From: Phycisphaeraceae bacterium
Lineage (GTDB): Bacteria > Planctomycetota > Phycisphaerae > Phycisphaerales > UBA1924
Length of the DNA stretch: 64,000 nucleotides
Direction of reading: 5' to 3'
Assembly: GCA_019636655.1 (NCBI GenBank)
Contig: JAHBXB010000001.1
Location: 1,116,001-1,180,000, forward strand
The notes under the pieces were generated by a model, which saw only the letters and a program-made list of their open reading frames with translations, was not told the origin of the DNA and did not search any database. Positions 31,844 to 59,134 of this stretch are shown one piece after another (position 1 is the first letter of the stretch; every line of letters starts with the position of its first letter). The position numbers were made by a program, and so were the translations under genes.

Positions 31844-32506
31844 ATGCGAGGGCAGAAACGCGCAGCAGTAGTCGGGTTGATCGCCTCAGCGGCCTTGGGG
31901 GCCACCTCGAGGGCGGATGTCATCAACTCCGCGGCGTACGGCAACGATCTTGCCGGTGCCAGGGTGACCGTTGACTTTCAGATCATGACACCCGATGGCC
32001 TCGTGCCGGGGCCGAGCCTGACCACCATCTGGGTAGCCAACGGCCCCGACTCGGGCGAGGCCTACCTGAGCGATTCGTTCCGCCTGTCGCTGTACGGCCA
32101 CAGCTACCACGACTTCTGGGTGCTCGACAACCTCGCGCCCTCAATGTTCATCAAGCAGGTCTTGATCGACCTGACCACCTCGTACTCGCTGTTCGACAAC
32201 AACTCGTCGCCGTCCTCTCCCGGCAGCAACGAGGGCCTGGCGGGCGTCGAGTACTCGGACGGGCTCTCCACCGCCCCGGCGCCGATCGCGGCGTACGAGG
32301 CGCTCCCCTGGGCCTCGCCGACCAACCTCGGCGACATGTTCCAGAAGGAGTACATCGTCTGGAACGACGGCGCCTTCGCCTACGGCCAGACGTTCTGGTT
32401 CCGTGACGATACCGACACGACCGATGTGCTCCTCCCCGCTCCCGGCAGCGCCGCCGTGGTGGGCGGCCTGATGCTCCTCGGCGCCCGTCGCCGCCGGCGA
32501 GCCTAA
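31844..32506 (+). CDS. exported protein with PEP-CTERM-like sorting tail
   Basis: A 220-residue secreted protein. The signal peptide covers about residues 1-24 (VVGLIASAALGATSRA). The body is unrecognised (GNDLAGARVTVDFQIM, then SFRLSLYGHSYHDFWVLDN). The C-terminus reads LPAPGSAAVVGGLMLLGARR then RRRA. This is a Pro-x-Pro-like motif, a hydrophobic helix and an Arg cluster, which is the layout of planctomycete PEP-CTERM sorting signals handled by an exosortase. AGGAGA lies 4 nt before the ATG. No exosortase gene is in the window. Confidence 0.82.
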   Translation: MRGQKRAAVVGLIASAALGATSRADVINSAAYGNDLAGARVTVDFQIMTPDGLVPGPSLTTIWVANGPDSGEAYLSDSFRLSLYGHSYHDFWVLDNLAPSMFIKQVLIDLTTSYSLFDNNSSPSSPGSNEGLAGVEYSDGLSTAPAPIAAYEALPWASPTNLGDMFQKEYIVWNDGAFAYGQTFWFRDDTDTTDVLLPAPGSAAVVGGLMLLGARRRRRA

Positions 32507-33807: not shown

Positions 33808-35235
33808 TCACGGCCGCGTATTGATGATGTAGTCCGACCCTTCGCCCCCGCTCTTCAAGGCCTCGGTATTCGCTCGGGTGCTAGGCGTTCCCCGGTCGTC
33901 CTGACCATCGAGGCCCACGCTGTACAGCAGGTAGCCGCGGCCGAACCGATCGCTCGCGGGATCATCGACCAGTCGGTAGCCGAACGGTGCGCCGCTGAAG
34001 GGATCAATCGGCAGCGACGGCAGGATCTCCGGGACCAGAGCGCTGAGTGTCTGTGGCAATCGGCCGTACCTGGCCCGGTACATCTCGACCGCGATCATCG
34101 TGCGGACCCCGGCGATGTCAGTGAGATACATGTCGTTCGCGGCGATCACGAGATCGATGCTCGCAAGCAGGTTCTTGACCAAGACGTAGCGGCCTGGGAG
34201 GTTGTCGACAAACGCGCCGACCTTGAACGGGTGCGCGTCCCGCTGCGACCGCGGAAGGTCCGCCGACACCATCGCATTGTCAAAGAACTCGTTTACCTTC
34301 GCTGTCGAGTCGGCCTTGGACGGATACAACAGGCCAATGACATTGACGATCCGGTGAGATCCCAGCCAACCGGTCCGCGGAACTGCCGGGATCAACATCC
34401 CGCCCACCTTGGAGTAGATCATCGTTCCGTCGCCGTGCCCGTTGTCGGTGTGGGTCCACTGGATCGTGTCGAGGGAGAGGAGCCGCTCCCCGTTGAGCAT
34501 CACCGACAGCGGCGGAACAGGCCCGAGGTGGTGGTCCATTGCATCGAGGAGTTCGGCCAGTTCATCCGCCGAGAACCGTGCCGATGTCATCTCGGACCTC
34601 AGTTCACCCAGCGTAAGCGACGCGATGGAAATGCCAACGAGCCGGCTGACCATGATCGGCTGCGAAGCAAGCGCCCGCACTATGACCAGGTTCTGCTCGA
34701 ACGCGGCAAGCCTCTCAGCCCGATCGCCTGCGCGGTTTGCGAGGTGCATCCGCGCGACGTTCATCTTCGCGATGTCGCGGAGGGGACCGAAATCCAGCGT
34801 GATCGACTCGAGCAAGTCTCCATCGTGCTTGGGTTGGACGAATCGCTCGCTCCGGGCGAGCTGCGCGAGTTTGTCGAAAAGGCCGCACTGCTTCATGTAC
34901 GCCATGGCATCAATCGACGACTCCAGCACTTCGGGCGGCGAGGCCGGGTCTGTGGTCGACAAAAAGTCTGGCGGATACGCTGCCTTGGCAATCTCATCGT
35001 TCAGCGTGTTTCGCAGTTGAGCGATTTCCATGAGCAGCGGCCACGCGTTTTCCTTGCCCTCCGTCGCCGCCTGGGCCGCCTCGCTGATCTCGACCATCCT
35101 TGCCCCGTAGTCGACCGATCGCCCCGGCTGCGCCGTGTAGGCCCAGCACGCCGCGACAACGACAATCAACACGATTGCCACGACAACCGCGGCGGCGATA
35201 TTCCTCGGCCGGTACCAGCGATCTCGCATCGTCAC
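33808..35235 (-). CDS. membrane-anchored protein of unknown function, tandem paralogue 1
   Basis: A 475-residue protein with one N-terminal membrane anchor (about residues 12-35) after RDRWYRPRN, then a largely helical outside domain. Near the C-terminus a block reads LPQTLSALVPEILPSLPIDP, then FSGAPFGYRLVDD, then GYLLYSVGLDGQDDRG. Such LP-DPFxGxPxxY-YSVGxDGxDD ends occur in pseudopilin-like and related planctomycete proteins. The start at GTG 35235 is uncertain (ATG 35229 is next). The upstream neighbour is a close paralogue. Function unknown. Confidence 0.82.
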   Translation of the reverse strand: MTMRDRWYRPRNIAAAVVVAIVLIVVVAACWAYTAQPGRSVDYGARMVEISEAAQAATEGKENAWPLLMEIAQLRNTLNDEIAKAAYPPDFLSTTDPASPPEVLESSIDAMAYMKQCGLFDKLAQLARSERFVQPKHDGDLLESITLDFGPLRDIAKMNVARMHLANRAGDRAERLAAFEQNLVIVRALASQPIMVSRLVGISIASLTLGELRSEMTSARFSADELAELLDAMDHHLGPVPPLSVMLNGERLLSLDTIQWTHTDNGHGDGTMIYSKVGGMLIPAVPRTGWLGSHRIVNVIGLLYPSKADSTAKVNEFFDNAMVSADLPRSQRDAHPFKVGAFVDNLPGRYVLVKNLLASIDLVIAANDMYLTDIAGVRTMIAVEMYRARYGRLPQTLSALVPEILPSLPIDPFSGAPFGYRLVDDPASDRFGRGYLLYSVGLDGQDDRGTPSTRANTEALKSGGEGSDYIINTRP

Positions 35236-40195: not shown

Positions 40196-40804
40196 ATGCG
40201 GCGATGGACAACAGCAACGGCGGTGCGGGCCGTGGCGGGTGCGGGGGCGTTGAGTTCGCTGCTCGCGCTGGGCGCGTGCGTGGACAATCAGAACAATGAC
40301 CTCACCATCGGATCCGCGCCCGACCGGGTCACGCTGCCGGCGCTGGAGACCCGCGCCAACCTGGCGTCGGCCCAGCCCCCTATCGATGAGGCCCCGCCTC
40401 CTTCGGTGGTCGGCGTGATGCGCGACAACTGGCAGCGCGTCACCTTCAAAGTGCCCATCGAGTACGTGAGCCATCAGGCCACTTCGGCGACCAACCCGAC
40501 GTACACGGACGAGAACGCCCGGCAACTCGGCCAGTACCCGACCGAGGCCTCGTGCGTGGAGCGGCCGACGAGCCGGTCGTACGGCGATGAGGCGTGGGAG
40601 GGGCTCGCCGCGCCGTTTTATTGCGGGCTGGATGTCGTCATGGCCCTGCCGCGAATGTTCGTGGCTCCCCCGTGGACGCTGCAGCGGAGCCCCGGAACGG
40701 CGTATGAACGGCGGCCCGACGAGGTCCCGGCGTTCTACAAGATCGCCCCGGCGGGCCAGACCCCGGCGGTGGACCCGGCCGGTGCGCCGTCGGAGGCCCA
40801 CTGA
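40196..40804 (+). CDS. lipoprotein of unknown function
   Basis: A 202-residue exported lipoprotein. The signal peptide ends in the lipobox LGAC (Cys near residue 28). The mature part is unrecognised (TFKVPIEYVSHQ, ARQLGQYPTEASC, GLAAPFYCGLDVVMALPRMF, PPWTLQRSP). Two cysteines in the mature domain could form a disulfide. CGGAGG lies 5 nt before the ATG; TAGACT at 40158 may be a -10. Its stop overlaps the rhodanese start (TGATG). Confidence 0.75.
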   Translation: MRRWTTATAVRAVAGAGALSSLLALGACVDNQNNDLTIGSAPDRVTLPALETRANLASAQPPIDEAPPPSVVGVMRDNWQRVTFKVPIEYVSHQATSATNPTYTDENARQLGQYPTEASCVERPTSRSYGDEAWEGLAAPFYCGLDVVMALPRMFVAPPWTLQRSPGTAYERRPDEVPAFYKIAPAGQTPAVDPAGAPSEAH

Positions 40805-41220
40805 TGTCCGAGGGGCTCAAGCCGATCCCGCAACTCGACGCCCGCGGACTGCCGGTGGGGTATGCCTACCAGCCAGACTACGAGGTGACGCCGCGCGAGA
40901 CCAGGTCGCTCCTGGAAGCCGCGGCGGGAACGAGTGACGGCACGCTGCTCGTGGACTGCCGGCGGCAGAACGAGTGGGAGACGTGCCGGATCGAAGGGGC
41001 CGTGCTGATCCCGATGGAGGAGATCGCGATGCGCCTCGACGAACTCGAGGGACCCGACGGCGAGCGGGACCGGCCGATCATCGTGCAGTGCCACACCGGG
41101 CGGCGGTCGCTCAAGGTGACGCACCTGCTTCGGGAGGCGGGGTTCTCCGACGTCAAGTCGATGGCGGGCGGGATCGAGCTGTGGTCGATCGACATCGATC
41201 CGAACGTGCCGCGGTACTAG
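40804..41220 (+). CDS. single-domain rhodanese-like sulfurtransferase
   Basis: A 138-residue rhodanese domain with a short N-terminal extension. LLVDCRRQNEWETCRIEGAV is the opening block. The active-site loop is VQCHTGRRS, with catalytic Cys and a CxxGxR pattern, followed by REAGFSDVKSMAGGIELWS. Expected to carry sulfur as a persulfide; GlpE-like in size. Translationally coupled to the lipoprotein. Its stop shares CTAG with the convergent PEP-CTERM-like gene. Confidence 0.9.
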   Translation: MSEGLKPIPQLDARGLPVGYAYQPDYEVTPRETRSLLEAAAGTSDGTLLVDCRRQNEWETCRIEGAVLIPMEEIAMRLDELEGPDGERDRPIIVQCHTGRRSLKVTHLLREAGFSDVKSMAGGIELWSIDIDPNVPRY

Positions 41221-42035
41221 CGCCGGCGGCGGGCGGCGAAAAGGCCGGCGAATCCCAAGAGGATACCCGAGCCGGGTGCGGGGAAAATCCCCATAATGAG
41301 TCCGAACCCAGTTGTCGTGTACGGCTGGACCGCGCCTCCTTGCAGGTCGCTCCTCGTGATCCCAAGGAAGTTCACACTGCCATCGGCGCCCGACTCGGGA
41401 TCGGGGGGAGTGGCCGAAGATGGCAACCACCCGAGAATCGGCCCGGCGGACCCGGTGACGGAGAACTGCACGAATTGATTCTCTTGTACCAGGTTGGCGT
41501 GGAACCGAAACACGTTTGTAAACGAGTTCGCGCCGAGTGAGCCTGGAATCGGGGTTGTCGGTTGTGGACTTGCATCAGGCCAAGGGGCCGATGCGCCGCC
41601 GACGATGTCGCGGAACGACTGGACGAAACTGCCCGGCGTTGCGGCGTTGCCCTCGATCACGTTCGTGCCCACCAGCGTGCCACCGTATTCGGTTGACGGG
41701 CCGCTGTTGAAAGGTGCCACTCTTGACGTGGCACTATCGACTGCCAATGTGTCGCCCGGCGCGAAACCCACCATTGATACTCGCCCCGTCCAGTTGAACA
41801 GGCCCTGATTGCTCTGACCAAGATCCTGCCCCGTCAGGTTGAAGATTCCAACCTGGACGGTGATGGTGTACACGCCACCTGCATTGCCTGCCAAGGTATT
41901 GCCGCCAGACATCAACAATGTCTGGCCATCCGGCCGGGTAACCGAGAAGCGGATTTGCGTCGTCCACGTCGTCGCAGCGGTGGCGGAAGCGGCGAATCCG
42001 GCGGCGCACAGAACTCCTGCTAGGGCTGTCTTCAT
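41217..42035 (-). CDS. PEP-CTERM-like exported protein, family copy 1
   Basis: A 272-residue secreted protein. The signal peptide is near residues 1-22 (ALAGVLCAAGFAASATA). The body carries family blocks shared with the two copies at 42864-43688 and 43949-44758: TWTTQIRFSV, the block TVQVGIFNLTGQ followed by SNQGLFNW, then GASAPWPD and NVFRF. The C-terminal tail reads FPAPGSGILLGFAGLFAARR then RR. This is the most divergent of the three copies. An AGGAACG Shine-Dalgarno and a TTGACG-17-TACGTT promoter lie upstream. Likely surface or extracellular; function unknown. Confidence 0.85.
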   Translation of the reverse strand: MKTALAGVLCAAGFAASATAATTWTTQIRFSVTRPDGQTLLMSGGNTLAGNAGGVYTITVQVGIFNLTGQDLGQSNQGLFNWTGRVSMVGFAPGDTLAVDSATSRVAPFNSGPSTEYGGTLVGTNVIEGNAATPGSFVQSFRDIVGGASAPWPDASPQPTTPIPGSLGANSFTNVFRFHANLVQENQFVQFSVTGSAGPILGWLPSSATPPDPESGADGSVNFLGITRSDLQGGAVQPYTTTGFGLIMGIFPAPGSGILLGFAGLFAARRRR

Positions 42036-42077
42036 GGGAGCGTTCCTGTGAGAGCTGGGACGATACAACGACATCAT

Positions 42078-42106
42078 AACGTACATGATTCTGGTGGATC
42101 CGTCAA
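42078..42106 (-). promoter_or_regulatory. sigma-70-type promoter of PEP-CTERM-like copy 1
   Basis: On the minus strand: TTGACG (42106-42101), a 17-nt spacer and TACGTT (42083-42078). The leader is about 35 nt. The layout is nearly the same as before the other two family copies. Confidence 0.65.
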
Positions 42107-42141
42107 TGTTAGGTATTTGAGAAAGACACTTCCTCGATCGG

Positions 42142-42738
42142 CTACGCATTCGCGAGCCAGTACAGGGCAGTTGCGGCGATCGCGGTCAGAGAGAGTGATG
42201 CGAGCAGCACGATGGCGAGTCGCAGGCGGCTCCGGCGGCGGTGGCGATCGCGGGCCTGGCGCAGGGGCGGGAGGAAGTCGATCGAATCAAGGGCCGTGCG
42301 GACCGCGGCGACGGCGTCGGCGCCCTTGGGGTACATCATGGCGAGGACCGGGGCCATTTCAGAGTCGGCACGCTCCAGGTGGCGGGCGGCGGCGGTGCGC
42401 GAGGAGTCCATGGCCCGGGCGACGACGACGCTATTGAGCTGGTCGAGGCGGGCGAGCAGCCAGGCCTCGCGGCACTGCTCGGGCATGGCATGGGTGGCGT
42501 GGAGAACGGCGAGTTCGGGGCGCGGCGTGTTCGACGCGGGCGCGGGCCGGTGACGGCGCAGGACGCGCCGGGCGGCGGTGATGCAGACGCGGTCGAGGCG
42601 GGCGGGGTCGATGCGGTCCAGACGCGGGGCAAGGGCGAGGGTCGCCGCGAGGATCCTGGCGGTGAGGAAGGGGTCGCCGCCGGCAAGGAGGAAGGCCAGG
42701 CGCGAGGCGCGGCGATCGGCAGCGTCCTGGCGGGTCAT
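42142..42738 (-). CDS. membrane-anchored sigma-region-4-like protein
   Basis: A 198-residue protein. Its middle (about residues 88-130) reads MPEQCREAWLLARLDQLNSV, then VVARAMDSSRTAAARHLERA. This follows the sigma-70 region 4 pattern of ECF factors: LPxxxRExxLLxxxxxLxxxEIAxxLxxSxxxVxxxLxRA. A basic stretch (RDRHRRRSRLR) and a single membrane helix (about 170-193) end the protein. Region 2 is not obvious, though the first 60 residues are helical. It sits between two PEP-CTERM-like genes. It could be a degenerate, membrane-tethered sigma or anti-sigma-like regulator; confidence in any function is low. Confidence 0.65.
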   Translation of the reverse strand: MTRQDAADRRASRLAFLLAGGDPFLTARILAATLALAPRLDRIDPARLDRVCITAARRVLRRHRPAPASNTPRPELAVLHATHAMPEQCREAWLLARLDQLNSVVVARAMDSSRTAAARHLERADSEMAPVLAMMYPKGADAVAAVRTALDSIDFLPPLRQARDRHRRRSRLRLAIVLLASLSLTAIAATALYWLANA

Positions 42739-42772
42739 GTGCGGATGATACGGGGATGGGGCCGAGCGAACG

Positions 42773-42810
42773 GAAAAGAACAAGGGCCCCGGGGAACACC
42801 CGGAGCCCTT
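42773..42810 (-). terminator. rho-independent terminator of PEP-CTERM-like copy 2
   Basis: On the minus strand a 12-bp stem (AAGGGCTCCGGG with CCCGGGGCCCTT, one mismatch) closes a 5-nt loop and is followed by GTTCTTTTCC. It lies about 54 nt past the stop at 42864. Confidence 0.75.
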
Positions 42811-42863
42811 GCGTGAGTCAGATTGACCGCGGGTCGAGACCCGCAGCGAGTCACCGAGCGCTA

Positions 42864-43688
42864 TTAGGCGCGACGGCGACGGGCGGCGAGGAGGCCGCCG
42901 AGGCCCAGGAGGGCAACGGAGCCCGGAGCCGGGATGCGGGGCAGCGTGAAGCTGGAGTCCGCAAAGGCAGACAGCGGGCCGCCGTCAGCCGTGCCACGGG
43001 TGATCCCGAGGAAGGTCACGGAGCCCGGATCGCCCTCGAAGGGGGGGTTGACGCCGAAGGGCGACCACGCGAGTACCGGGCCAGCGGAGCCGCTAAAGGT
43101 CGTCACGATCGGGTCGGTTCCGCTGCCAACAATGATCTGGAAGCGGAAGACGTTGGTGTAGGTGTCCGCACCGAGCGCACCGGGAACCGGGGCGGTCGGC
43201 TGGGGGTCGCCATCGTTCCACACGGCGCTGGCGCCGCCAGCGACATCGCGAGAAGCCTGGATCAGGCTGCCCGGGGTCACGGAGTTACCGTCGATGACGT
43301 TGCCGCCAACCACAGCGCCGCCGAAGGCGGTCGAGGGGCCGAAGTTGAAGGGGCTGATGCGGGACGTCGCGTTGGCAACGACGTAGTTCTCGCCAGCGCT
43401 GAAGCCGGTGCCGGTGGCGCGAGCGGCCCAGTTGAACAGGCCCTGGTTGCTCTCACCAGCGCCAGCGCCCTGAAGGTTGAAAATGCCAACCTGGACGGTA
43501 ACCGAGTACACGCCGGCGACCGTCACATTGGTCGGGCCGACGCCGCCGGAGTTGATGATTGTGCTCGAGTAACCGCTGCCCGCAGGCCCGGTCACCGAGT
43601 AGCGCATCTGCGTAGTCCACGTCGCCGCGGCGCTCGCCGAGGCGGCAAGGCCAGCGATACCAAGAATACCGACAACAACGTTCTTCAC
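42864..43688 (-). CDS. PEP-CTERM-like exported protein, family copy 2
   Basis: A 274-residue paralogue of the neighbouring copies. The signal peptide is near residues 1-20 (VVVGILGIAGLAASASA). Family blocks are TWTTQMRYSVTGP, TVQVGIFNLQG, SNQGLFNWAARA, TSRISPFNFGPSTAFGGAVV, GSVTFLGIT and the sorting tail PAPGSVALLGLGGLLAARRR then RA. GTG 43688 is the start because GGAGGAGAG lies just before it. It has its own TTGACA promoter and terminator, so it is a single-gene unit. Probably abundant and surface-bound (inference). Confidence 0.87.
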   Translation of the reverse strand: MKNVVVGILGIAGLAASASAAATWTTQMRYSVTGPAGSGYSSTIINSGGVGPTNVTVAGVYSVTVQVGIFNLQGAGAGESNQGLFNWAARATGTGFSAGENYVVANATSRISPFNFGPSTAFGGAVVGGNVIDGNSVTPGSLIQASRDVAGGASAVWNDGDPQPTAPVPGALGADTYTNVFRFQIIVGSGTDPIVTTFSGSAGPVLAWSPFGVNPPFEGDPGSVTFLGITRGTADGGPLSAFADSSFTLPRIPAPGSVALLGLGGLLAARRRRA

Positions 43689-43739
43689 GGGTCTCTCCTC
43701 CAAAAGGGGGGTCAGAATGACGACTCACTCTCGACGGAT

Positions 43740-43767
43740 AAGGTAATCGATTCCTGCGGGCTGTCAA
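43740..43767 (-). promoter_or_regulatory. sigma-70-type promoter of PEP-CTERM-like copy 2
   Basis: On the minus strand: consensus TTGACA (43767-43762), a 16-nt spacer and TACCTT (43745-43740). The leader is about 45 nt and ends in a strong Shine-Dalgarno sequence. Confidence 0.65.
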
Positions 43768-43869
43768 GTACCTCAACAAGAAAGAACCCCAAGGCTGTCC
43801 CCTAGTTTTTGGAAACTCGTACTTTTCAGCCTACGCCTCGGTACGACCATCGATAGCCGAAAGCCAATG

Positions 43870-43898
43870 AAAAAGGCCCCGAGCCGAAGCTCGGGGCC
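43870..43898 (-). terminator. rho-independent terminator with UUCG loop
   Basis: On the minus strand a perfect 10-bp stem (GGCCCCGAGC/GCTCGGGGCC) closes a TTCG tetraloop and is followed by five T. It lies about 51 nt past the stop of PEP-CTERM-like copy 3. Confidence 0.9.
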
Positions 43899-43948
43899 CT
43901 GGTCGTTGCGGTGGGCACCTCGTTCCCGGTGTAACCGGGAAAGGGGGG

Positions 43949-44758
43949 TTAGGCCCGGCGGCGACGGGCGGCGATCAGGCCACCCAGGCCGAGAAGGGCC
44001 GCCGCGCCCGGGGCGGGGACGCGGACGATGGTAAAGCTGGAGTCAGCGAACGGACGGAGCACGTTCGGGGTCGCGTTCGTGATCCCGAGGAAGGTCACGG
44101 AGCCCGGATCGCCATCGAACGGGGGGGTGACGTTGAAGGGGGACCAAGCCAAGACAGGTCCGGCCTCGCCAGCGAAGGTCATGACGATGTCGCTGCCGAC
44201 CGTCTCAGTCACGGTGATGGTGTAGCGGAAGACGTTGGTGTAGGCGTCGGCGCCGAGCTGGCCATTGGTGGGCGCCGTCGGCATCGGGGAACCGTCCGGC
44301 CACACGGCGGAGGCGCCGCCGGAGACGTCACGGGAGGCCTGGATCTTGCTGCCGGGGGTGACAGCGTTGCCATCGATGGCCGTGCCGCCGTTGACCACGG
44401 CACCGCCGAAGGCGGTCGAGGGGCCGAAATTGTAGGGGGAGATTCGCGAGGTGGCGTTGGCGACGACGAGGGACTCGCCAGCCATCAGGCCGGTGCTGGA
44501 GCCGCGAGCGGCCCAGTTGAAGAGGCCCTGGTTGCTCTGGCCCGCCTCCTGGCCGGTCAGGTTGAAGATGCCAACCTGGACCGTGACACTGTACACGCCA
44601 GCTGCGCCGACAGGCATACTACCGCCGCTGGGGACGAGAACAGCCGAAGCGCCGGGCGCTGTGATGCTGTAGCGCATCTGGGTTGTCCAGTTGGCGTCCG
44701 CGACCGCGGAGGCGGCGAGACCCGCAACAGCAATAATACCACACAGGGCAGTCTTCAC
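43949..44758 (-). CDS. PEP-CTERM-like exported protein, family copy 3
   Basis: A 269-residue paralogue, closest to copy 2. The signal peptide is near residues 1-20 (ALCGIIAVAGLAASAVA). Shared blocks are NWTTQMRYSI, TVQVGIFNLTGQEAGQSNQG, TSRISPYNFGPSTAFGGAVV, GSVTFLGIT and the tail PAPGAAALLGLGGLIAARRR then RA. GTG 44758 follows GGAAGGAG. Own promoter upstream and UUCG terminator downstream. The tail predicts exosortase-type sorting; function unknown. Confidence 0.87.
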   Translation of the reverse strand: MKTALCGIIAVAGLAASAVADANWTTQMRYSITAPGASAVLVPSGGSMPVGAAGVYSVTVQVGIFNLTGQEAGQSNQGLFNWAARGSSTGLMAGESLVVANATSRISPYNFGPSTAFGGAVVNGGTAIDGNAVTPGSKIQASRDVSGGASAVWPDGSPMPTAPTNGQLGADAYTNVFRYTITVTETVGSDIVMTFAGEAGPVLAWSPFNVTPPFDGDPGSVTFLGITNATPNVLRPFADSSFTIVRVPAPGAAALLGLGGLIAARRRRA

Positions 44759-44815
44759 GTGGAACTCCTTCCGATATATGGGGCAGTGAGAGGGAACGAC
44801 TACAACGACAAGGCA

Positions 44816-44844
44816 AACATACCTCAAGCTCAAAAGACCGTCAA
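44816..44844 (-). promoter_or_regulatory. sigma-70-type promoter of PEP-CTERM-like copy 3
   Basis: On the minus strand: TTGACG (44844-44839), a 17-nt spacer and TATGTT (44821-44816). The leader is about 50 nt. The AT-rich upstream stretch GTTTTTTTCACGAG could act as an UP-like element. Confidence 0.68.
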
Positions 44845-44982: not shown

Positions 44983-46218
44983 TCAAGGCTTCTGCAACGC
45001 CACCGCGACGATCTCGTAGGCGTAGGCATCCCCCTCAGCGGGCCCGATCAGCAGGAACGAGCCGCGGGTCGTCGTTGCCCGCGGAATTGAAGCCATCGAA
45101 ACGACCGGGACGGCCTGCCGGCCGGTGGTGTCTGGTGTCGGCTGCGCCGAGACCACTCCCTTCGGGGTGCCCACGAGGAATGCGCCGGACGCCTCTCCCA
45201 TCCACGCCGCGGCGAACGAGTTCGGGGCCAGCGAGAGGAGCGAACCATCGGAGGGTGAGAATGCGACAATTTGGTGCTGCGCCGGGTGGAAGAGCGGGAT
45301 GAGCCCTGAGGGGAGGCCGCCGCGGGGCAGGACGACCGGGGTCTGGCTCGACGCGATCGACTGGTAGGCGTCGATCATGCCGCCGGAGGATGCGAGCCAG
45401 GTGCGGGGGCCGGGGAGAAGGGAGCCGGACGCGGGGTCGGTGGCGACAGCGAGGACCTCGATGCCGTCAGGAGCGATGGCGAAGACGGCCAGGACGCCGG
45501 GGATATCGCCGAAGGTCGGGAACGCGAGATCGGTCCCGCCCGGCGCCAGTTCCAGAGCGGGCTGGCCGGGGGAGGGGATGACGACGAGGGATGCCGGCGC
45601 GCGCGGGTTCGCACGGCGCGTGTACGCGAGTTCGCCAGCCGGGCCGAGAACGGCGTGGGCACTGACGTTCTTGTCGCGGACGAGCCAGTCCACCGCGCCG
45701 GTTTTCCAGGCGACCTTGCCGATCCAGCGAGAACCGTCGCCCTGCGGGGCCTCCACGAGGAATCCGTCCTGATCCGCTGATCGACCCAGGAGCAGACCGG
45801 CGGGAAGGGGCGCTGTCAGGGTGCGAGGAGCGAGGCCGGTGTCGGTGATGTCGACGACGGCGATCTCGCTGCCCAGGGGAGGGGGCGAGCCGGGCTGGGC
45901 GAGGATGGAGGGCCACGTGGGCGGTCGGCCCTGCTGCAGGGCGATGTGGTCGCCGGCGGGCGAGACAAGCGGCTGGGAGAGCCCGTCGTAGCGGACCCGG
46001 CCGAGGGGCTTGATGGCGAAAGTGAGGCGGGAGGTGCGGGTGGAGTCGATGGGGGCGGGGCGTGCGGCGGAAGCCGTTGGGAGGGTTGGCGACGGCTGGT
46101 CCGAGGGCTTTGGAGCGGGGACGGTGATGCAGGCGCTGCACGCGGCCGCGGCGGCGGACAGGAGCAACCTCGTGGCGATCCGGGGCCAACGACGCGGTGC
46201 GGTGCGGCGTGGTTGCAT
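44983..46218 (-). CDS. lipoprotein at the end of the type II secretion operon
   Basis: A 411-residue exported protein. The signal region RLLLSAAAAACSAC has a lipobox, with acylation likely at the first or second Cys near residues 28-31. The mature part is beta-rich with propeller-like repeats (LVSPAGDHIALQQG, AVLGPAGELAYTRR, FPTFGDIPGVLAVFAIAPDG, IVAFSPSDGSLLSLAP). It starts 11 nt after gspD ends, which suggests co-transcription and a role near the secretin. It is too large and not similar to known pilotins. No family recognised. Confidence 0.78.
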   Translation of the reverse strand: MQPRRTAPRRWPRIATRLLLSAAAAACSACITVPAPKPSDQPSPTLPTASAARPAPIDSTRTSRLTFAIKPLGRVRYDGLSQPLVSPAGDHIALQQGRPPTWPSILAQPGSPPPLGSEIAVVDITDTGLAPRTLTAPLPAGLLLGRSADQDGFLVEAPQGDGSRWIGKVAWKTGAVDWLVRDKNVSAHAVLGPAGELAYTRRANPRAPASLVVIPSPGQPALELAPGGTDLAFPTFGDIPGVLAVFAIAPDGIEVLAVATDPASGSLLPGPRTWLASSGGMIDAYQSIASSQTPVVLPRGGLPSGLIPLFHPAQHQIVAFSPSDGSLLSLAPNSFAAAWMGEASGAFLVGTPKGVVSAQPTPDTTGRQAVPVVSMASIPRATTTRGSFLLIGPAEGDAYAYEIVAVALQKP

Positions 46219-46229
46219 GACGGTGGATT

Positions 46230-48833
46230 CTACTGGCGGCCCTCCGCGGGTGGTGGCGGCGGGGGCGCGGTGGGCGTGTTGGGATTGTCGTTCGGCAGGG
46301 GCGGGAGGGGCTCCTCGCCGGGGGGGGCGATCTCGTCGGGCTTGAGGGTGTTTCGGAGTTGGTCGAGACGCTGGCGGTAGGGGACGTTGGCGTCGTAGGA
46401 CGTGGTCGGGTTGTCGATCACCAGCGGCGTGACGAAGACGAGCAGCTCGGTCTTGGACTTCTGCTTGTCGATGGACTGGAAGAGCGGACCGATGAGCGGG
46501 AGATCGCCCAGGAGGGGGACCTTGCGGACGACGTCGGAATCCTCGGATCGGATGATGCCCGAGAGGACGATCGTCTGGTTGTTCTGCACGATGAGCTGGG
46601 TCGTGGTCTGGCGGCGGTCGACGATGAATCCGCCGAAGAGCGTCTGGTTGGGCTGGATGCGGGAGAGCTCGACGTCGATGCGGACGTCGACATCGTGGTT
46701 CACGGTGATGCGCGGGCGGATGCGGAGTTGGAGGCCGACGGCGCGGTAGTCGAAGGACTGGATGAGGCCGGTGTCGGTGGACTGGGTGTCGGTGATGAAG
46801 GGGATGTCCTGGCCGTCGAAGAAGGCCGCTTCCTGGTTGTCGGAGGTCCAGATGCGGGGCTCCGAGAGGACGTTGACGGTGGTCTTGGTGTTGAGAGCCT
46901 GGAGGAGGAGGTTGGCGCTGACATTGACGTTGAGGACCGAGGTATCGAAGAGGCCGGGGAAGACGTTGTTGGCCACGTTCTCGGAGCCGATACTGCCGCC
47001 GATGGTGTTCTCGCCGTCGCCCGGGGTGATCGCCTGAGAAGAGACGCGCAGGCCCAGGGCGGTGGCGTCGTCGAGCGCGACCTCGGCGATGATCGCGGAG
47101 AGAAGGACCTGACGACCGGGTTGGTCGAGGGTCTGCGCGAGTTGAACAAGAGCAGCCTGGTATTCCGGTGGCGCCATGATCATGACAGCGTTCTGCCGCC
47201 AGACGGGGACGATGCGGATCTTGCTGACGAGGGCTGAAGAGCCGGCGTTGTCGGAGGGCGGGCGGGCCCGCTGCCACCAGAAGGTGATGGTCTCGGAGGT
47301 GGTGGCGCCCTGGTTCTGCTGCTGGTTGTTCGCGGTGGAGCCGGTGGAAGGGTCGGCGGCGAAGGGGGACGCGCCCGCCGCGCCGCCGGTGGTGAGGCCG
47401 CTGGCCGAGCGGCGGATCTGGGCGAGCGTGCCCTCCTGAGCGAGGAGAGCGTTGAGTTGCTCGGCGAGTTCCTCGGCGTTGGCGTGCTTGAGTTCGATGA
47501 CCTTGGGGAGGCCGATGGAGAGGGGCTTGTCGAGGTCTTCGATGATCTTGTCGATGACCGAGAGGTTGTCGGGGGACTTGGAGATCACGACGAGCCGGCC
47601 GGCTTCGGGGATCGCCTGGAAGGAGAACTGCCCGCCGAGGCGGCTGCTCTGGCCGGTGGTGGATGAAGCGGCGCCGGTGGAGCCCGAGGTGCCGCCGCCG
47701 AAGAGGCCCTCGAGGAGATCGCGGACCTTGACGGGATCGGAGTTCACGAGGTTGTAGATGCGGGGGACGACGGCCTCTTCGGGGAGTGGCTTGTCCCAGA
47801 CATCAAGGATCTGGCGGCGGATCTGCGAGAGGACGATCGGCTCGGCGAGGACGGTGACGGAGTTCTGCTGGGTGTTGGCGGTGACGCGGAGGTTGGCGGA
47901 GGGGCTGGTGTCGTCGGCGCCGCCGGCGCGGGCGGGCTGGTTGGCGGCGCCGCCGGCGTTCCGGCCGGCCTGGGCCCCGGGCCCGCCGCGACCGCCCTGT
48001 CCGCCGCCGCCCTGCTGGCGGAAGAACTGCTGGAAGGGGCTCTGCTGGGTGTTCTGCCGGTTTCCGGTGGCGGTGCGACCGGCATCGGTGGAGTAGAGCT
48101 CGCGGATGTTCTCGGCGATGTGGGTGGCGTCGGCGTACTTGAGGATGAAGGTCTCGGTGGAGAGGGAAGCGGCGCTGGGGCGATCGAGCGAGAGGACGAT
48201 GCGTTCGAGGCGCTGGAGCAGGGCGATGTTGCCCATCACAACAACCTGGTTGGACTCCGTATCGACGTAGAACTTGGCGAAGTCGGGGAGGGAGTCCTTG
48301 AGGATCTTGCCAAGGTTCTCAGCGGAGGCGTAGCGGAGGGCGAAGACCTTCTCCACGACGGACCCGGGGTCGGTGCGATCGAGGGTAGAAACGTCCGGGC
48401 CGAGGACGGGGACATCCTGGCGGGTGATCTCGGCGATGTCGCGGAGGATGACGAGGTCCTCGGTCTCGACGACGCCGATGCCGGCCTGCTGGAGGGCCAG
48501 GAAGACGAGGTTGAGGGCCTTGGAGCGGTCGATGGGCTGGTCGTTGATGATGGTGATTCGTCGGGCGAGGACGTCCTGCTGGGGCATGACGACCTTGCCG
48601 GTGCACTCGACGATGAACGGGATGATCTGGTCGAGGGGGACGTTCTTGAAGGCGATCTTGGTGGGCTCGGTGGATTGCGGCCGTCGCCCGGAGGGATCAA
48701 CGACGCCCGGGATCGCCGGCTCGGCGCCGGGCGCCTGCGCGAGAGCGAGCGAGGACCCGGAGAACATCGCCGCGGCGGCCAGGAGGGCGCGGGGGCTGGT
48801 GGCGGGGCGGGCGTTGGGAGGGCGGATGTTCAT
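46230..48833 (-). CDS. gspD: type II secretion system secretin
   Basis: Outer-membrane channel of the type II secretion system. The 867-residue protein has a signal peptide, an N0-type domain (KIAFKNVPLDQIIPFIVECT), several N1-type KH-like domains (VFALRYASAENLGKIL, FILKYADATHIAENIREL, IELKHANAEELAEQLNALL) and the C-terminal secretin domain. The latter shows VLLSAIIAEVALDDATALGL and the signature VPLLGDLPLIGPLFQS. A Gln/Gly-rich loop lies near residues 260-310. The Pro-rich C-terminus could be the S-domain region. It overlaps gspC by ATGA. Confidence 0.95.
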   Translation of the reverse strand: MNIRPPNARPATSPRALLAAAAMFSGSSLALAQAPGAEPAIPGVVDPSGRRPQSTEPTKIAFKNVPLDQIIPFIVECTGKVVMPQQDVLARRITIINDQPIDRSKALNLVFLALQQAGIGVVETEDLVILRDIAEITRQDVPVLGPDVSTLDRTDPGSVVEKVFALRYASAENLGKILKDSLPDFAKFYVDTESNQVVVMGNIALLQRLERIVLSLDRPSAASLSTETFILKYADATHIAENIRELYSTDAGRTATGNRQNTQQSPFQQFFRQQGGGGQGGRGGPGAQAGRNAGGAANQPARAGGADDTSPSANLRVTANTQQNSVTVLAEPIVLSQIRRQILDVWDKPLPEEAVVPRIYNLVNSDPVKVRDLLEGLFGGGTSGSTGAASSTTGQSSRLGGQFSFQAIPEAGRLVVISKSPDNLSVIDKIIEDLDKPLSIGLPKVIELKHANAEELAEQLNALLAQEGTLAQIRRSASGLTTGGAAGASPFAADPSTGSTANNQQQNQGATTSETITFWWQRARPPSDNAGSSALVSKIRIVPVWRQNAVMIMAPPEYQAALVQLAQTLDQPGRQVLLSAIIAEVALDDATALGLRVSSQAITPGDGENTIGGSIGSENVANNVFPGLFDTSVLNVNVSANLLLQALNTKTTVNVLSEPRIWTSDNQEAAFFDGQDIPFITDTQSTDTGLIQSFDYRAVGLQLRIRPRITVNHDVDVRIDVELSRIQPNQTLFGGFIVDRRQTTTQLIVQNNQTIVLSGIIRSEDSDVVRKVPLLGDLPLIGPLFQSIDKQKSKTELLVFVTPLVIDNPTTSYDANVPYRQRLDQLRNTLKPDEIAPPGEEPLPPLPNDNPNTPTAPPPPPPAEGRQ

Positions 48834-49615
48834 CGAATCTCCGATCGGGACGAATCGGTCGCGGACGGGGAGGAGGGGGCGGGCTCGGGCTGGGGATCGG
48901 GTTGCGGCTCCGGCTGCGGCGGCGGATCGTGCGGGGGATCCGGGAGCGGATCGGGATCAGGAGCGGGCTCAGGCGGGGGCTCGCCGGGAGCCGGCGGCTG
49001 GGGATCGGGCGGGGAGCCGCTCGGGCGGGGGGGCGCGGGCCGCTTGGGTGGGGGCTCGGCTTCCAGCGGAGCGGGTGCGCTCGCGTCGGCGATGAGGGGG
49101 CTGCGCTCGAAAAGGGAGACGGTGAACTCGACGCCCTCCCACTCGACGCGCGCGGTCCAGGGCGGGGTGATCTCGATGACCTTGAGATCGACCGTCTCGG
49201 AGCGGGCGTCGCCGGCGCGGAGGCGATCGCCGTTGGCGAACCACGCGGTGTCGTTGATCATCGCGATCAGGGCCGGACCGGCGTAGCGCGTGGGGCGCGA
49301 GGGGCCGGGGTCCGGCGTGCGATTGTCGGTGGTTTCGACACGCGGGGGGGGCGGCGGGCGGGGTGTGAAGAAGAGCGATCGGCCCGTGATGCGTTCGACG
49401 TAGAGGTTCAGGTCGGCGGCGAGCGCGGAGCTGTCGGCGGTCTGGGCGGCGGGCTTGTCATCCGGCGGGCTCATGGCCAGAGCGCGGACCAGGGGCCAGG
49501 CACGGACGAGGGCGAAGGCGAACGTGAGGGCGAGCGCCACGAGGGCGATGAGGCCGAGGCGGCGGGGGCCCGCGGCGATCGCCTTGAGCTTGTTCCAGGA
49601 GAGCCCTTCGGACAT
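48830..49615 (-). CDS. GspC-like inner-membrane component with proline-rich tail
   Basis: A 261-residue protein. One membrane helix (about residues 19-42) is followed by a periplasmic part with an HR-like domain: YAGPALIAMINDTAWFANGD, then RLRAGDARSETVDLKVIEIT, then WEGVEFTVSLF. This resembles GspC, which links the inner-membrane platform to the secretin. No PDZ domain is seen; instead the last 80 residues are Pro/Glu/Asp repeats (PEPQPDPQPEPAP). Position between gspM and gspD fits. Called GspC-like on domain and place. Confidence 0.75.
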   Translation of the reverse strand: MSEGLSWNKLKAIAAGPRRLGLIALVALALTFAFALVRAWPLVRALAMSPPDDKPAAQTADSSALAADLNLYVERITGRSLFFTPRPPPPPRVETTDNRTPDPGPSRPTRYAGPALIAMINDTAWFANGDRLRAGDARSETVDLKVIEITPPWTARVEWEGVEFTVSLFERSPLIADASAPAPLEAEPPPKRPAPPRPSGSPPDPQPPAPGEPPPEPAPDPDPLPDPPHDPPPQPEPQPDPQPEPAPSSPSATDSSRSEIR

Positions 49616-50241
49616 CAGCGGTTGCCTCCCGTTGAGGTGGACGGGAGCGAGCGGACCCAGGCCTCCGCGGCGAGTTCGGCGCGGACGGTGTTGGATCCGG
49701 ACTCGGAGCGACCGGACCTGGAATCGGCGCGCCGGATGGCCACTCGGGAAACGGCTGTCACCTCGTCGGAACGCTCGAGTTCGGCGAGCACGGTGGCGAC
49801 GGTGGCGGGATCGGCCTCGAAGGTGACGTCGAGGATTAGGCGATCGATGCGCTCGCCGGGCTGGGCGAGGATGGCGGCCTGTTCGGCGGCGAGAGAGACC
49901 TGCTTCTGGGCGATTTCAGCGCGGATGTTGTGGGCATCGAGGATTGTGTTGACGCGGGCGAAGAGGGCGGCGGTTCGGCTCGTTACGGGGCCGGGGAGGG
50001 CGGGGGTGCCGAAGGTCGTGCGGGCGACGGCGAGGGGGCGTGCGGGGTTGGACCAGTCCGCCGCGAGGGAACGTTCGCGGGCGAGGGAGGCCTCGGCGTT
50101 GTCGGCGGCGGTGACGAATGCGTTGGTGCGGTCGAGGATCGGCTCAATAATGGCAAAGTAGGCGATCATGCACGCGACGAAGACCGTGAGCCAGCGGGCG
50201 GCGCGGGGGAGGGCATGGAATCTGCGGAGAAGGGCGGTCAT
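49615..50241 (-). CDS. GspM/PilO-like inner-membrane component
   Basis: A 208-residue protein with a short cytosolic N-terminus, one membrane helix (about 14-38, WLTVFVACMIAYFAIIEPIL), a coiled-coil-like helix and a small ferredoxin-like domain (LILDVTFEADPATVATVLAE). This is the GspM/PilO architecture. Its start overlaps gspL-like by ATGA and its stop overlaps gspC-like as TGATG. ATG 50241 is preferred over an upstream start lying inside the previous gene. Confidence 0.8.
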   Translation of the reverse strand: MTALLRRFHALPRAARWLTVFVACMIAYFAIIEPILDRTNAFVTAADNAEASLARERSLAADWSNPARPLAVARTTFGTPALPGPVTSRTAALFARVNTILDAHNIRAEIAQKQVSLAAEQAAILAQPGERIDRLILDVTFEADPATVATVLAELERSDEVTAVSRVAIRRADSRSGRSESGSNTVRAELAAEAWVRSLPSTSTGGNR

Positions 50242-52085
50242 GGCTTCTTCTCCGTGAGAGCCGCGAGCATGCGCTTCTTGCACTTGTCGACTTCGTCCTT
50301 GAGCCTCTGCTTGGTCGCTTCGTCGAGGCCCGCGGCGTTGGCGGCGGCAGCCCGTTTTCTCATCTCATCGCCGGCGGCCTTGGAGTCGAAGGCGGCGATC
50401 TCGTCGTCGGTGAGCGGGGGCGGGATGTCTATGCCGCGGGGGGCTTCGGCGGGGGGCGCGGAGGCGCGGGGCTGGCGGCGGGTGGTGCGGCTGGACGAGG
50501 GTTCGGCGGAGCGGGAGTCTCGATCGGTGCGCCGCTCGTACCGCGTGGAGGATGCGGCGGCATCGGCGCCGTACATGAGCGCGGCGAGGGACTCCTGGGC
50601 GTAATCGTGGGAGGGGTTGACGCGCATGAGGGGTCCGGCGACGCGGGCCTGGAGGCGGAAGTCGTCGCCGGTGGACTCCGGCGCGTTCGAGGCGGAGGTG
50701 GAGAAACTGACGTCATCGAAGATGCGGAGGTCGGTGAGGTTCTTGCGGAAGGCGGCGATGACCTCGCGGTTGTCGGCGTGGCCGCGGAGGGAGAGACCGG
50801 CGTTGCCGGACTGCTCGGGGTTGAGTTCTATTGATTCGAGTCTCAGGCCGACGGGGGCGGCGCCGGCGACGTCGGCCAGGAGCTTGGTCATGGGCCATCG
50901 GCGGGAGCGGAGCAGTTCGTAGAACGCGGCCTGGGTGTCGGCGTGGTCGAGGCGTTCTCGCAGGGCGTCCTGCCCGCCCGCGCGGCCGAGCACAACCGCG
51001 CTGCGGGTCGCGGCGACGGCGAGGGGCCAGAAGAGGAGCACCGCGAGGCTGGCGGCGATGACGATCGCGGCGCGGCGGGAATCGGAGAGCCAGGTGATCG
51101 CCGCGAGCAACGGGGAGGCCGACTTGTCGGGCGCCGATTCGGAGAGCGACAGGAGCGGGACCAGCGCGGGGTCCCGCGAGGCCCAGGCGATGGCGGCGCC
51201 AAGTGCGATCGCGTGGGTGGTCTTGAGTGATGGGTCGGCAAGGCCGGTGATCGCGGCCTGGTGGACCGGGCTGGCTCCGCGGGTGCCGGAGAGAGCGACC
51301 GAGGGTTCCGGGCCGGTGACATCGATGGGTGCCGGGGGAAGGGCGATCGCCTTTCGGGTCTCATCGACCGCGGCGCGGACCGCGGCGGCGAAGCCATCGC
51401 GGGTGGAGGTGTCGGCCCGGAGGATGCGGGCCACTGACCTCGTCAGTGAGGCGGCGACGATGATCGCGGAACCCGCGGAGGGGTCGGCGTAGACGGCGGA
51501 CTCGACCACGCGGTCAGGCTGAGCCGCGGCTTGGCGCGCGAAGCAGGCGAGGGCGACGGGCTCGGGAATCCATGATTCGGACTCGAAGTCGGCCGTCAGC
51601 GGGAGCGATGCGGGCGCGGGCGATGAATCGGGCCAGCCGATGAGCAGGGCAAGGGGCGGCGTTCCGTTTGCGATCGGCTGGACCAGGCCGCCGGCCCGGC
51701 GCCAGGAGGGGATCGACGATGGGAGGTCCGCCTCGGCGACAAGGGCGAGCGCGGCGGCGGACTCGGCTGGACCGGCGGCGGAGTCAGGGAGGGAGACGGC
51801 GCGGCAGACCGTGGAGGCGGCCGGCAGAATCCTCAGAAGGCGCGTCACGCGGTGCTCGCGGAGCACCGCATCAAGGGCGCGGGCGGAGGCGTCGTCGACG
51901 GAGCGGACCGCGAGCACTTCGACCCCCCCACTCTCGGCGTGCCCTCCGCCGCTGCTCGAACTTGGCGCCGCCGGAGCGATGCTGGCGATCAGGATGCGCC
52001 ACGCGGCACCCTGGCGGTGAAGCACGGCGACCCGCTCGCCGGGGCGGGCGGAGGGGGAGGGCTTGATGGGCGTCGGGCTGGTCAT
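50238..52085 (-). CDS. GspL/PilN-like platform protein
   Basis: A 615-residue protein in the gspL position. The N-terminal 330 residues look like a degenerate actin-like (GspL/PilM) cytoplasmic domain. A membrane helix follows near 345-370 (AAIVIAASLAVLLFWPLAVA), then a periplasmic PilN-like domain (RLRLESIELNPEQSG type strands, AAFRKNLTDLRIFDDVSFS). A charged, Lys-rich helical C-terminus of about 100 residues extends beyond usual GspL. A Ser/Gly linker lies near residue 45. Overlaps both neighbours by ATGA. Confidence 0.78.
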   Translation of the reverse strand: MTSPTPIKPSPSARPGERVAVLHRQGAAWRILIASIAPAAPSSSSGGGHAESGGVEVLAVRSVDDASARALDAVLREHRVTRLLRILPAASTVCRAVSLPDSAAGPAESAAALALVAEADLPSSIPSWRRAGGLVQPIANGTPPLALLIGWPDSSPAPASLPLTADFESESWIPEPVALACFARQAAAQPDRVVESAVYADPSAGSAIIVAASLTRSVARILRADTSTRDGFAAAVRAAVDETRKAIALPPAPIDVTGPEPSVALSGTRGASPVHQAAITGLADPSLKTTHAIALGAAIAWASRDPALVPLLSLSESAPDKSASPLLAAITWLSDSRRAAIVIAASLAVLLFWPLAVAATRSAVVLGRAGGQDALRERLDHADTQAAFYELLRSRRWPMTKLLADVAGAAPVGLRLESIELNPEQSGNAGLSLRGHADNREVIAAFRKNLTDLRIFDDVSFSTSASNAPESTGDDFRLQARVAGPLMRVNPSHDYAQESLAALMYGADAAASSTRYERRTDRDSRSAEPSSSRTTRRQPRASAPPAEAPRGIDIPPPLTDDEIAAFDSKAAGDEMRKRAAAANAAGLDEATKQRLKDEVDKCKKRMLAALTEKKP

Positions 52086-53479
52086 CTGACGACGAGGTCC
52101 TTGATCACGACGGGGAGGGAAGAACGGTCGATGGTGGCGGTCATAACCACCTCGGTGCCTGTCGCCGCGTCCCGGCCGCGGGAGACGACGACAAAGACGT
52201 TGGAGCGGACGGTGATGTAGGGAAAGAGATCGGCGAGTCGATCCCGAGTCATGGAAGGAACCTCGAGCAGATCTGTGAGGGCGACAAAGCCCTGCTGGCG
52301 GGAGCCGCGCTCGAGGATGATGGAATCGGCCAGCGACGAGTCGATCGTCGGCAGGCACTGGAGGACTTCGTCCGAGCAGGTGTTGATGTTGAGTTTCCCG
52401 GGCGCGGGGACGCCCGAGACGGCCGGGAACGCGCACTCCTCCAGGAGGCGGGCGATCTGGTCGTCCGACAGGGGCTGGATCTGGCGTGCGCGGGCCGCAC
52501 TGAACCCGCTGTCCCCGGTGGCGGTGGCGGCGGCCTGCGCAAGGTCGGCGAGGTCCGATCGGAGGAAGTCGACCAGCGTGCCCGACGGGGTCGCCGCGGC
52601 GTAGGCCTGGATCGCCTGGGCCTGGTCGGACGTGAGCGAGGCGGCGCGGGATGCGCCGGAGTTCAGGCGGCTGAGGATCTCCTCGGAGGTAGCGACGGTC
52701 AGGTCGAGCCGGGGCTGGCCGGAGGCGGCCCATCCGCCGTCGAGCCCGTCGCTGCTGGCCGCAGTGAGGTACTCCGACCAGCCGGCGTTCAGGACGCCGT
52801 CCGCATTGTCCGGGGGAAAGAGGCCGGAGGGGGGCGAGCCGTCGTTCTCTTCCGCGTCGAGCGTCCCTGAGAGGTTCCAGTCCTCGCCGCGGAGCAGGTC
52901 GGGCGCGACGCCCTCGACCAGTTCGAGTTCCTGCAGCGTGCGCGGCGGGGCGTTGCGCGGCAGGTAAGGGACGGCCAGGGAGAGGTAGAACGAATCCTCG
53001 GCGCCGAGCGGGCTGGTGTCGTCGTCGGAGTCGATCCAATCCAGGATGGCGTCGGCTGCGTCTTCCGTCATGTTCGGGATGAGCATGAGCGCATCGGCCG
53101 TCATGGTGGCGACGTTCAGCTTGGCGTGAGTGTCGGCGGGGCCATCAACGGTGCGCTTGGAGACGTCGTCCCAGTGGACGACGGAATAGGTCGCGCCGAA
53201 GAGCTCGGCGTGCGAGACGGCGGCGAGGTCGTTGTAGACCGTGTGGGCGTTGGAGGTGTCGGGCTCGGCGGTGTCGAAGGCGATCGCGGCGATGGCGGCC
53301 TCGACACCCGCCTTGGCGGCCCACTTGGCGCGGGTCCGCGCCACGGCTTCCCGCCCGGCGGCGGCGCCGCGCCACGCGACGGTTTGCAACGAGACCAGGA
53401 GGATGGCGACGATGCCGATCACCACGAGAACCATGACCGTGGCGAATCCGGGGCGGGATTTCCGGCGGTGAGTTCTCAT
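52082..53479 (-). CDS. gspK: minor pseudopilin GspK
   Basis: A 465-residue GspK. Unlike other pseudopilins it is large, with a prepilin-like N-terminus (RPGFATVMVLVVIGIVAILL) lacking Glu at position 5, as is normal for GspK. A large alpha domain follows with helix-hairpin-helix-type repeats (MLIPNMTEDAADAILDWIDS, ELVEGVAPDLL, INTCSDEVLQCLPTIDSSLA). GspK caps the pseudopilus tip with I and J. GGGGAGG lies 7 nt before the ATG, and the start overlaps gspJ. Confidence 0.92.
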   Translation of the reverse strand: MRTHRRKSRPGFATVMVLVVIGIVAILLVSLQTVAWRGAAAGREAVARTRAKWAAKAGVEAAIAAIAFDTAEPDTSNAHTVYNDLAAVSHAELFGATYSVVHWDDVSKRTVDGPADTHAKLNVATMTADALMLIPNMTEDAADAILDWIDSDDDTSPLGAEDSFYLSLAVPYLPRNAPPRTLQELELVEGVAPDLLRGEDWNLSGTLDAEENDGSPPSGLFPPDNADGVLNAGWSEYLTAASSDGLDGGWAASGQPRLDLTVATSEEILSRLNSGASRAASLTSDQAQAIQAYAAATPSGTLVDFLRSDLADLAQAAATATGDSGFSAARARQIQPLSDDQIARLLEECAFPAVSGVPAPGKLNINTCSDEVLQCLPTIDSSLADSIILERGSRQQGFVALTDLLEVPSMTRDRLADLFPYITVRSNVFVVVSRGRDAATGTEVVMTATIDRSSLPVVIKDLVVR

Positions 53480-54498: not shown

Positions 54499-54509
54499 GG
54501 TCCGTGCGG

Positions 54510-57397: not shown

Positions 57398-57411
57398 GGT
57401 GTTGAAGCGGA

Positions 57412-59052: not shown

Positions 59053-59134
59053 GGTCAGGACCCCATCGGGTTGTCGCGGCGGGCGTGGCGTGGAACCGTC
59101 CCGACGCGGCGAAGGTCGTTGCGGTCGGGACGCA

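Follow-up and report, generated by a model that had tools for sequence, protein, structure and literature searches.

The window analysed here, 64,000 nucleotides (nt) from a Phycisphaeraceae bacterium (assembly GCA_019636655.1, contig JAHBXB010000001.1, positions 1,116,001 to 1,180,000), contains three open reading frames (ORFs) on the minus strand, P1, P2 and P3, that encode paralogous proteins of 269–274 amino acids (aa), alignable end to end and ending in tails of the PEP-CTERM type. An operon for a type II secretion system (T2SS) lies directly upstream on the same strand, and P3 stands immediately behind the putative lipoprotein gene that closes it, in a position that is called here the slot. 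The initial annotation of this DNA had described three tandem PEP-CTERM-like paralogues with matched promoters, and the ORFs, the identities, the tails and the promoter sites confirm it; it was silent on the T2SS neighbourhood and on the conservation of the promoter across genera, and its interpretation as a whole is supported in part. The features of the trio are the following:

41217-42035, minus strand: P1, ATG start, 272 aa, with a signal-peptide-like N terminus and a tail of PAPGS, transmembrane segment and RRRR
42864-43688, minus strand: P2, GTG start, 274 aa, with a PEP-CTERM-type tail
43949-44758, minus strand: P3, GTG start, 269 aa, the copy directly 3′ of the lipoprotein gene and thus in the conserved slot
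44803-44844, minus strand: P3 promoter, TTGACG-17-TATGTT plus GTCGTTG
43740-43767, minus strand: P2 promoter, TTGACA-16-TACCTT; GTCG begins 4 nt beyond
42078-42106, minus strand: P1 promoter, TTGACG-17-TACGTT; GTCGTTGT begins 5 nt beyond
43873-43900, minus strand: terminator-like hairpin after P3, with a T tract and a TTCG loop
42780-42812, minus strand: terminator-like hairpin after P2, with a T tract

Over the full length P2 is 72% and P1 52% identical to P3, and BLAST comparison of the protein bodies gives 71% for P2/P3, 51% for P1/P2 and 49% for P1/P3. As judged by eye, the N termini have a basic start, a hydrophobic core and an AxA-like site, and the tails follow the pattern PAPGx-hydrophobic-ARRRR(A). 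Cysteine occurs only at residue 10 of P1 and residue 6 of P3, the mature parts and the tails having none. The bodies match no Pfam or NCBIfam family, which bears out the earlier description of an unnamed family, and AlphaFold models from alignments of 4 and 6 rows (mean predicted local distance difference test, pLDDT, 40.4 and 47.3) were too low in confidence for a fold search. A fourth copy of the body family in the same genome (L033:4863-5627, 41% identity to P3) lies off the slot and has no trio-type promoter.

The PEP-CTERM assignment agrees with a genome-wide TIGR02595 search (E ≤ 0.1), in which 24 tails exceeded the cut-off of 16 bits, including those of P2 (21.4), P3 (18.6) and P1 (17.1). 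The search for an exosortase that had been proposed as a check revealed two in the genome (PF09721, 151.6 and 149 bits; TIGR02602, 114.7 and 107.2 bits, cut-off 105.55), neither of which is over the cut-off of any named class. By eye they contain the C, R and H that we take to be the active-site residues. One, of 295 aa, has an EpsI-like neighbour (below cut-off) and stands in what by eye is an exopolysaccharide-type cluster, with Asn_synthase and AAA_31 matches; the other, of 623 aa, also contains DUF3485. A further protein of the window with a PAPGS-hydrophobic-RRRR end is encoded at 31523-32506 (plus strand), its family matches all being below cut-off, and related genomes hold other arrays of PEP-CTERM paralogues (L036, L037, L038).

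The pattern TTGACR-N16/17-TAYSTT occurs at five sites in the 3.66-Mb genome, three of which are the trio promoters (two sites in the reversed-pattern control), and TTGACN-N15-18-TANNTT-N3-8-GTCG occurs genome-wide at exactly the three trio promoters (one site in the control). The trio had been credited with the best sigma-70 promoters in the window, which is correct to the extent that P3 and P2 are among six sites tied at 9/12 of the E. coli consensus, whereas P1 is not on that list. The sigma-54-type site TGGC-N7/8-TTGC is absent from the 300 nt upstream of each gene; bare GG-N10-GC is found in that interval three times each for P2 and P3, always upstream of the -35, and not for P1. Both hairpins named earlier as terminators, one with a UUCG loop, are present, but the hairpin scan hardly rises above shuffled sequence (4 sites in total against 3.1 expected). 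No terminator-like hairpin follows P1, the stop codon of which overlaps that of a rhodanese gene, tail-to-tail. Strong Shine-Dalgarno sequences, attributed to all three genes, hold for P2 and P3, P1 having AGGA only. Judged from this layout, each gene of the trio would be its own transcription unit. Independent control in the sense of different control is unlikely, because all three genes share one promoter type.

A homologue of the lipoprotein is encoded in 69 of 163 genomes of the family, and its neighbourhood was read in all 69 (the present window included), a PEP-CTERM-type tail being sought for the first 62 loci by a pattern of our own, on the same strand and within 7 kb. A PEP-CTERM-type gene, the slot gene, follows immediately after the lipoprotein gene in 16 of the 69 genomes, from 13 genera (the genome described here, G428, G456, G029, G431, G488, G168, G018, G031, G455, G430, G461, G439, G034, G017 and G005). 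The tail is visible in 15 of the 16, the gene of G431 running off its contig after 31 codons; in G005 the lipoprotein gene is split over two contigs, and promoter and slot gene follow the second piece. Homologues occur in other genomes, their lack outside this strain having been named earlier as grounds for abandoning the idea. At least two slot copies are present in eight genomes (the one described here, G456, G029, G488, G168, G439, G034 and G017), and past the last copy, which is the second in G168 and G017, a rhodanese homologue lies tail-to-tail in three: G168 (L162), G017 (L209) and this one (window 40804-42035). The secretin gene gspD adjoins the lipoprotein gene in 63 of the 69 genomes and in 12 of the 16 with a slot gene, G430 not being judgeable; it was not found at the lipoprotein gene in L162, L170, L204 and L209, nor seen in L117 and L172, where the contig ends too soon. 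The lipoprotein gene usually, not always, accompanies the T2SS. In G460 and G471 (L142, L143) the gspD-lipoprotein pair is followed by a gene for an unrelated 177-aa PEP-CTERM-type protein, which may be a second case of independent origin.

The promoter is kept across these genera. In a comparison of the 16 first slot copies, made without a shuffle control, 15 have TTGAC, a spacer of 16–17 nt, a -10 of the form TA-NNN-T and GTCG 5–9 nt further on; the strict TTGACR-N16/17-TAYSTT is found in 14, G168 has TATGCT, and the exception is G034, with TTGACA and a different -10. Four of nine later copies examined have the promoter (P2, P1, G456b and G017b), the later copies of G439 and G034 being outside the nine. 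In the 163 family genomes TTGACN-N15-18-TANNTT-N3-8-GTCGTTG occurs at 13 sites, against 7 in the columns of the reversed-pattern control. Slot promoters account for 11 of the 13; of the other two, one stands ahead of a tRNA-Asp gene (G496) and one is in G003. When a longer promoter pattern was sought in 84,980 species genomes, the matches listed were five contigs, all of this locus (G431, G428, G455, G018 and G430) and all from Phycisphaerales or Phycisphaeraceae metagenome-assembled genomes, in a listing that may omit near records: the genome described here fits the pattern yet is not listed.

The proteins behind this promoter have diverged widely. G428 shares 29% identity with P3, and the remaining genera aligned share 16–21%; pairs from different genera that BLAST detects are 23–33% identical, and slot copies of one genome 39–71%. 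A body search of 397 genomes of the class at E 1e-3 returned the own genome only, a related-locus search of genome contigs returned none, and a looser search of the family genomes found G428. A profile built from 19 bodies matches 14 of the 163 genomes, among them G462, G439, G520 and G431, which were not in the profile. By eye, G428 seems to retain a second copy in decay (L082, about 15063-15360), and G456 (L152 and other contigs) has four copies in the slot and seven more of the body family at other places in the genome. A tree of 61 GspD rows places all 12 slot rows together in a clade of 14 (support 84), to which L165 and L167 also belong, both on contigs that end at the lipoprotein gene; the slot gene is seen in none of the 47 rows outside the clade, L159, L206 and L207 being uninformative. 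The tree leaves out L129 and L133, which are shorter than 400 aa, as well as G168, G455, G430 and G017, for lack of a gspD gene; G005 counts as slot in it. The picture that these comparisons suggest is of copies that would be born, diverge and decay behind a fixed promoter, and the variant matrix subunits proposed in the initial annotation would fit such duplication and divergence.

The T2SS operon reads E, F, G, H/I-like, J, K, L, M, an unassigned ORF and D, followed by the lipoprotein gene; from its neighbourhood the lipoprotein is a candidate secretin-associated protein. From the trio upwards, and together with the ORF between P2 and P1, these genes are:

42142-42738, minus strand: ORF resembling sigma-70 region 4, with a C-terminal transmembrane-like stretch; all matches below curated cut-offs
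44983-46155, minus strand: putative lipoprotein, 390 aa; no Pfam or NCBIfam match
46230-48833, minus strand: GspD, T2SS secretin (PF00263, PF03958)
48830-49615, minus strand: T2SS-operon ORF at the GspC position, so placed by position only; no family match
49615-50283, minus strand: GspM-like (PF10741)
50238-52100, minus strand: GspL/PilN-like (PF05137); start not fixed
52082-53479, minus strand: GspK (PF21687, PF03934)
53476-54510, minus strand: GspJ-like pseudopilin (PF07963 over, PF11612 below cut-off); start not fixed
54968-55621, minus strand: GspH/I-like pseudopilin (TIGR02532 over cut-off)
55637-56116, minus strand: GspG (PF08334)
56120-57784, minus strand: GspF (PF00482); ORF as listed, the true start probably being later
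57412-59268, minus strand: GspE/PilB-type ATPase (TIGR02533, 570.7 bits, below the cut-off of 630.25)

Elsewhere in the window an adjoining pair of clearly similar proteins with an N-terminal membrane-like stretch is encoded on the minus strand (33808-35235 and 35293-about 36700), the first without a Pfam match.

The layout, the tails, the exosortases, the slot and promoter kept across genera and the duplication with divergence are the observations from which our interpretation starts. With moderate confidence we read the trio as a lineage-specific expansion of the lipoprotein-slot gene, encoding exosortase-sorted surface or matrix proteins under a fixed promoter, with the T2SS as a guessed exit. 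One ancestral gene would have stood directly behind the lipoprotein gene, usually the end of the T2SS operon, in a group of Phycisphaerales, and would have expanded in this genome. Under a sigma-70-type promoter (TTGAC-N16/17-TAYSTT), each copy would give a transcript of its own, which probably starts near GTCG and carries a short unstructured leader. The product would enter the Sec pathway and stay anchored in the inner membrane through its PEP-CTERM-type tail until one of the two exosortases cleaves the tail there, and the mature protein would finally reside in the matrix or on the cell surface. For the route across the outer membrane, the weakest step of the scheme, the T2SS next to the trio would be the first guess. 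Copies would arise, diverge fast and decay, the promoter staying fixed.

A number of results weigh against this interpretation. In hmmscan of the isolated proteins with TIGR02595 only P2 is over the cut-off (16.5 bits), P3 reaching 14.2 and P1 giving no match, and the support of the GspD clade is 84. The body profile recognises the slot proteins of 11 of the 16 genomes and misses those of G018, G005, G034 and G017, so that a common body family is established for the 11 only. In codon usage P3 ranks 38th, P2 40th and P1 85th among 87 genes (the reference being 22 ribosomal genes picked by eye, the background 87 ORFs selected by a rule on GC position in the window and eight other stretches of the genome), and the high expression foreseen in the initial annotation finds no support in this. 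According to a study on Akkermansia, PEP-CTERM proteins of that organism are scarce and more abundant in intracellular than in outer-membrane fractions (PMC4960237). Other adverse points concern the slot itself. The slot gene was not seen in 53 of the 69 genomes, six of these contigs ending less than 500 nt from the lipoprotein gene (L159, L165, L167, L204, L206 and L207), and body-family copies also occur off the slot (seven in G456, others in G431 and G520, and the fourth copy described above). In G168 and G455 the roughly 20 kb flanking the lipoprotein-slot pair on each side yielded none of eight T2SS proteins tested, and in G017 the 3.3 kb upstream yielded no T2SS gene; because of these pairs the slot gene must be said to go with the lipoprotein gene and not with the T2SS. 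The same absences, the 53 genomes and the off-slot copies favour the view that the trio encodes ordinary exosortase substrates, that T2SS proximity is inherited gene order without function and that another exit is used, e.g., an exopolysaccharide exporter, as do the apparent exopolysaccharide cluster around one exosortase and the long-standing tie of PEP-CTERM to exopolysaccharide (PMC1569441). Against it stands the order gspD-lipoprotein-slot, kept in 12 genomes despite long GspD branches, and we regard this view as a serious possibility that falls somewhat short of probable. T2SS export of the slot proteins is itself a guess, based on gene position and on the analogy of the MYXO-CTERM and GlyGly-CTERM systems, and the three exceptions weaken it. 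A fuller proposal would have a surface protein with a locus-specific promoter and leader, after exosortase processing, leave through the outer membrane by the T2SS in this Phycisphaerales group; the slot gene, partnered by the lipoprotein, would encode a main client, diversified like a surface-exposed coat or recognition protein. This appears unlikely.

One may ask if the conserved promoter together with the start of the transcript serves instead as a regulatory site, bound by a repressor or an activator or targeted by a small RNA, which would make production state-dependent. GTCG stands 5–9 nt past the -10 in all 15 promoter-bearing first copies, GTCGTTGTNGT is conserved in several genera, which exceeds what a sigma-70 promoter is expected to need, and the codon usage bears no sign of constitutive high expression. 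However, six leaders fold about like shuffled sequences (z -1.12 to +1.81), leaving a reading of the leader as RNA structure unsupported, no common operator was seen by eye upstream of the -35, and the initial transcribed sequence can set promoter strength; such a site is conceivable, though we rather doubt it. The sigma-70-region-4-like gene is suggested as a dedicated regulator of the trio by its position between P2 and P1 and by its weak resemblance to region 4. Homologues are present in 20 of 100 family genomes (this one included); the 100 contain 15 slot genomes, of which only two, this one and G428, have the gene, and in nine loci of relatives that were read a rhodanese homologue lies beside it in three and a slot gene directly beside it in none. 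On this distribution and synteny it was rejected as trio regulator, a role that we consider very improbable, and it probably does not belong to the system. The multiple slot copies in eight genomes and their fast divergence might suggest a set of copies for antigenic variation by recombination, but each trio copy has its own promoter, no silent cassette was seen, and the longest identical DNA measures 35 bp (P2/P3), 18 bp (P1/P2) and 14 bp (P1/P3); with tracts so short this explanation was rejected and is hardly credible.

No route of exosortase substrates across the outer membrane is, to our knowledge, established. They were proposed in 2006 to go to, and possibly through, this membrane (PMC1569441), and a passing remark in the study on Aquincola has PEP-CTERM proteins possibly reaching the periplasm via the T2SS (PMC9850573). 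A PEP-CTERM gene kept beside a T2SS operon in many genera would offer a concrete client-exporter pair, beyond the two C-terminal tag systems already linked to the T2SS, and a promoter with fixed first transcribed bases despite a diverging protein would be a handle on transcription in this class, which a 2025 review describes as not yet tested for genetic accessibility (PMC12078418). The open-access texts found, as far as they were available, in searches on PEP-CTERM/exosortase with T2SS, secretin, Planctomycetes or Phycisphaer- report neither this locus nor a promoter arrangement of its kind.

The trio resembles the PEP-CTERM/exosortase system (TIGR02595, TIGR02602; PMC1569441) in its tripartite C-terminal tag, signal-peptide-like N terminus and the exosortases in the genome, as well as in single-gene units, lineage-specific paralogue expansion and conserved upstream DNA. 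It differs from the classic form in having PAPG in place of PEP and in the tie of the slot gene to one lipoprotein locus, mostly at the T2SS operon. In Haft 2006, sigma-54-type motifs upstream of PEP-CTERM genes are described for proteobacteria only, with more than 65% single-gene operons (PMC1569441), whereas the trio promoter is of the sigma-70 type. Like the trio genes, Aquincola pepA is a single PEP-CTERM gene with its own promoter, which in that case is mapped and RpoN-dependent, the gene having a role in flocs (PMC9850573); unlike pepA and the PrsK/PrsR-controlled genes, which depend on sigma-54, the trio lacks the -24/-12 site in the interval searched. MYXO-CTERM and myxosortase likewise pair a C-terminal tag with a sorting protease, and MYXO-CTERM and GlyGly-CTERM proteins are reported as T2SS clients that cross the outer membrane (PMC11980579). 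Yet MYXO-CTERM has an invariant Cys, absent from the trio tails, and a CPBP protease where an exosortase is found here, and for the trio the T2SS is pointed to by gene linkage alone; GlyGly-CTERM/rhombosortase (PMC3237569) shares the tag architecture and has a different motif. With its sigma-70-type promoter, linked to a single lipoprotein/T2SS locus, the present arrangement differs from that of the reported PEP-CTERM genes.

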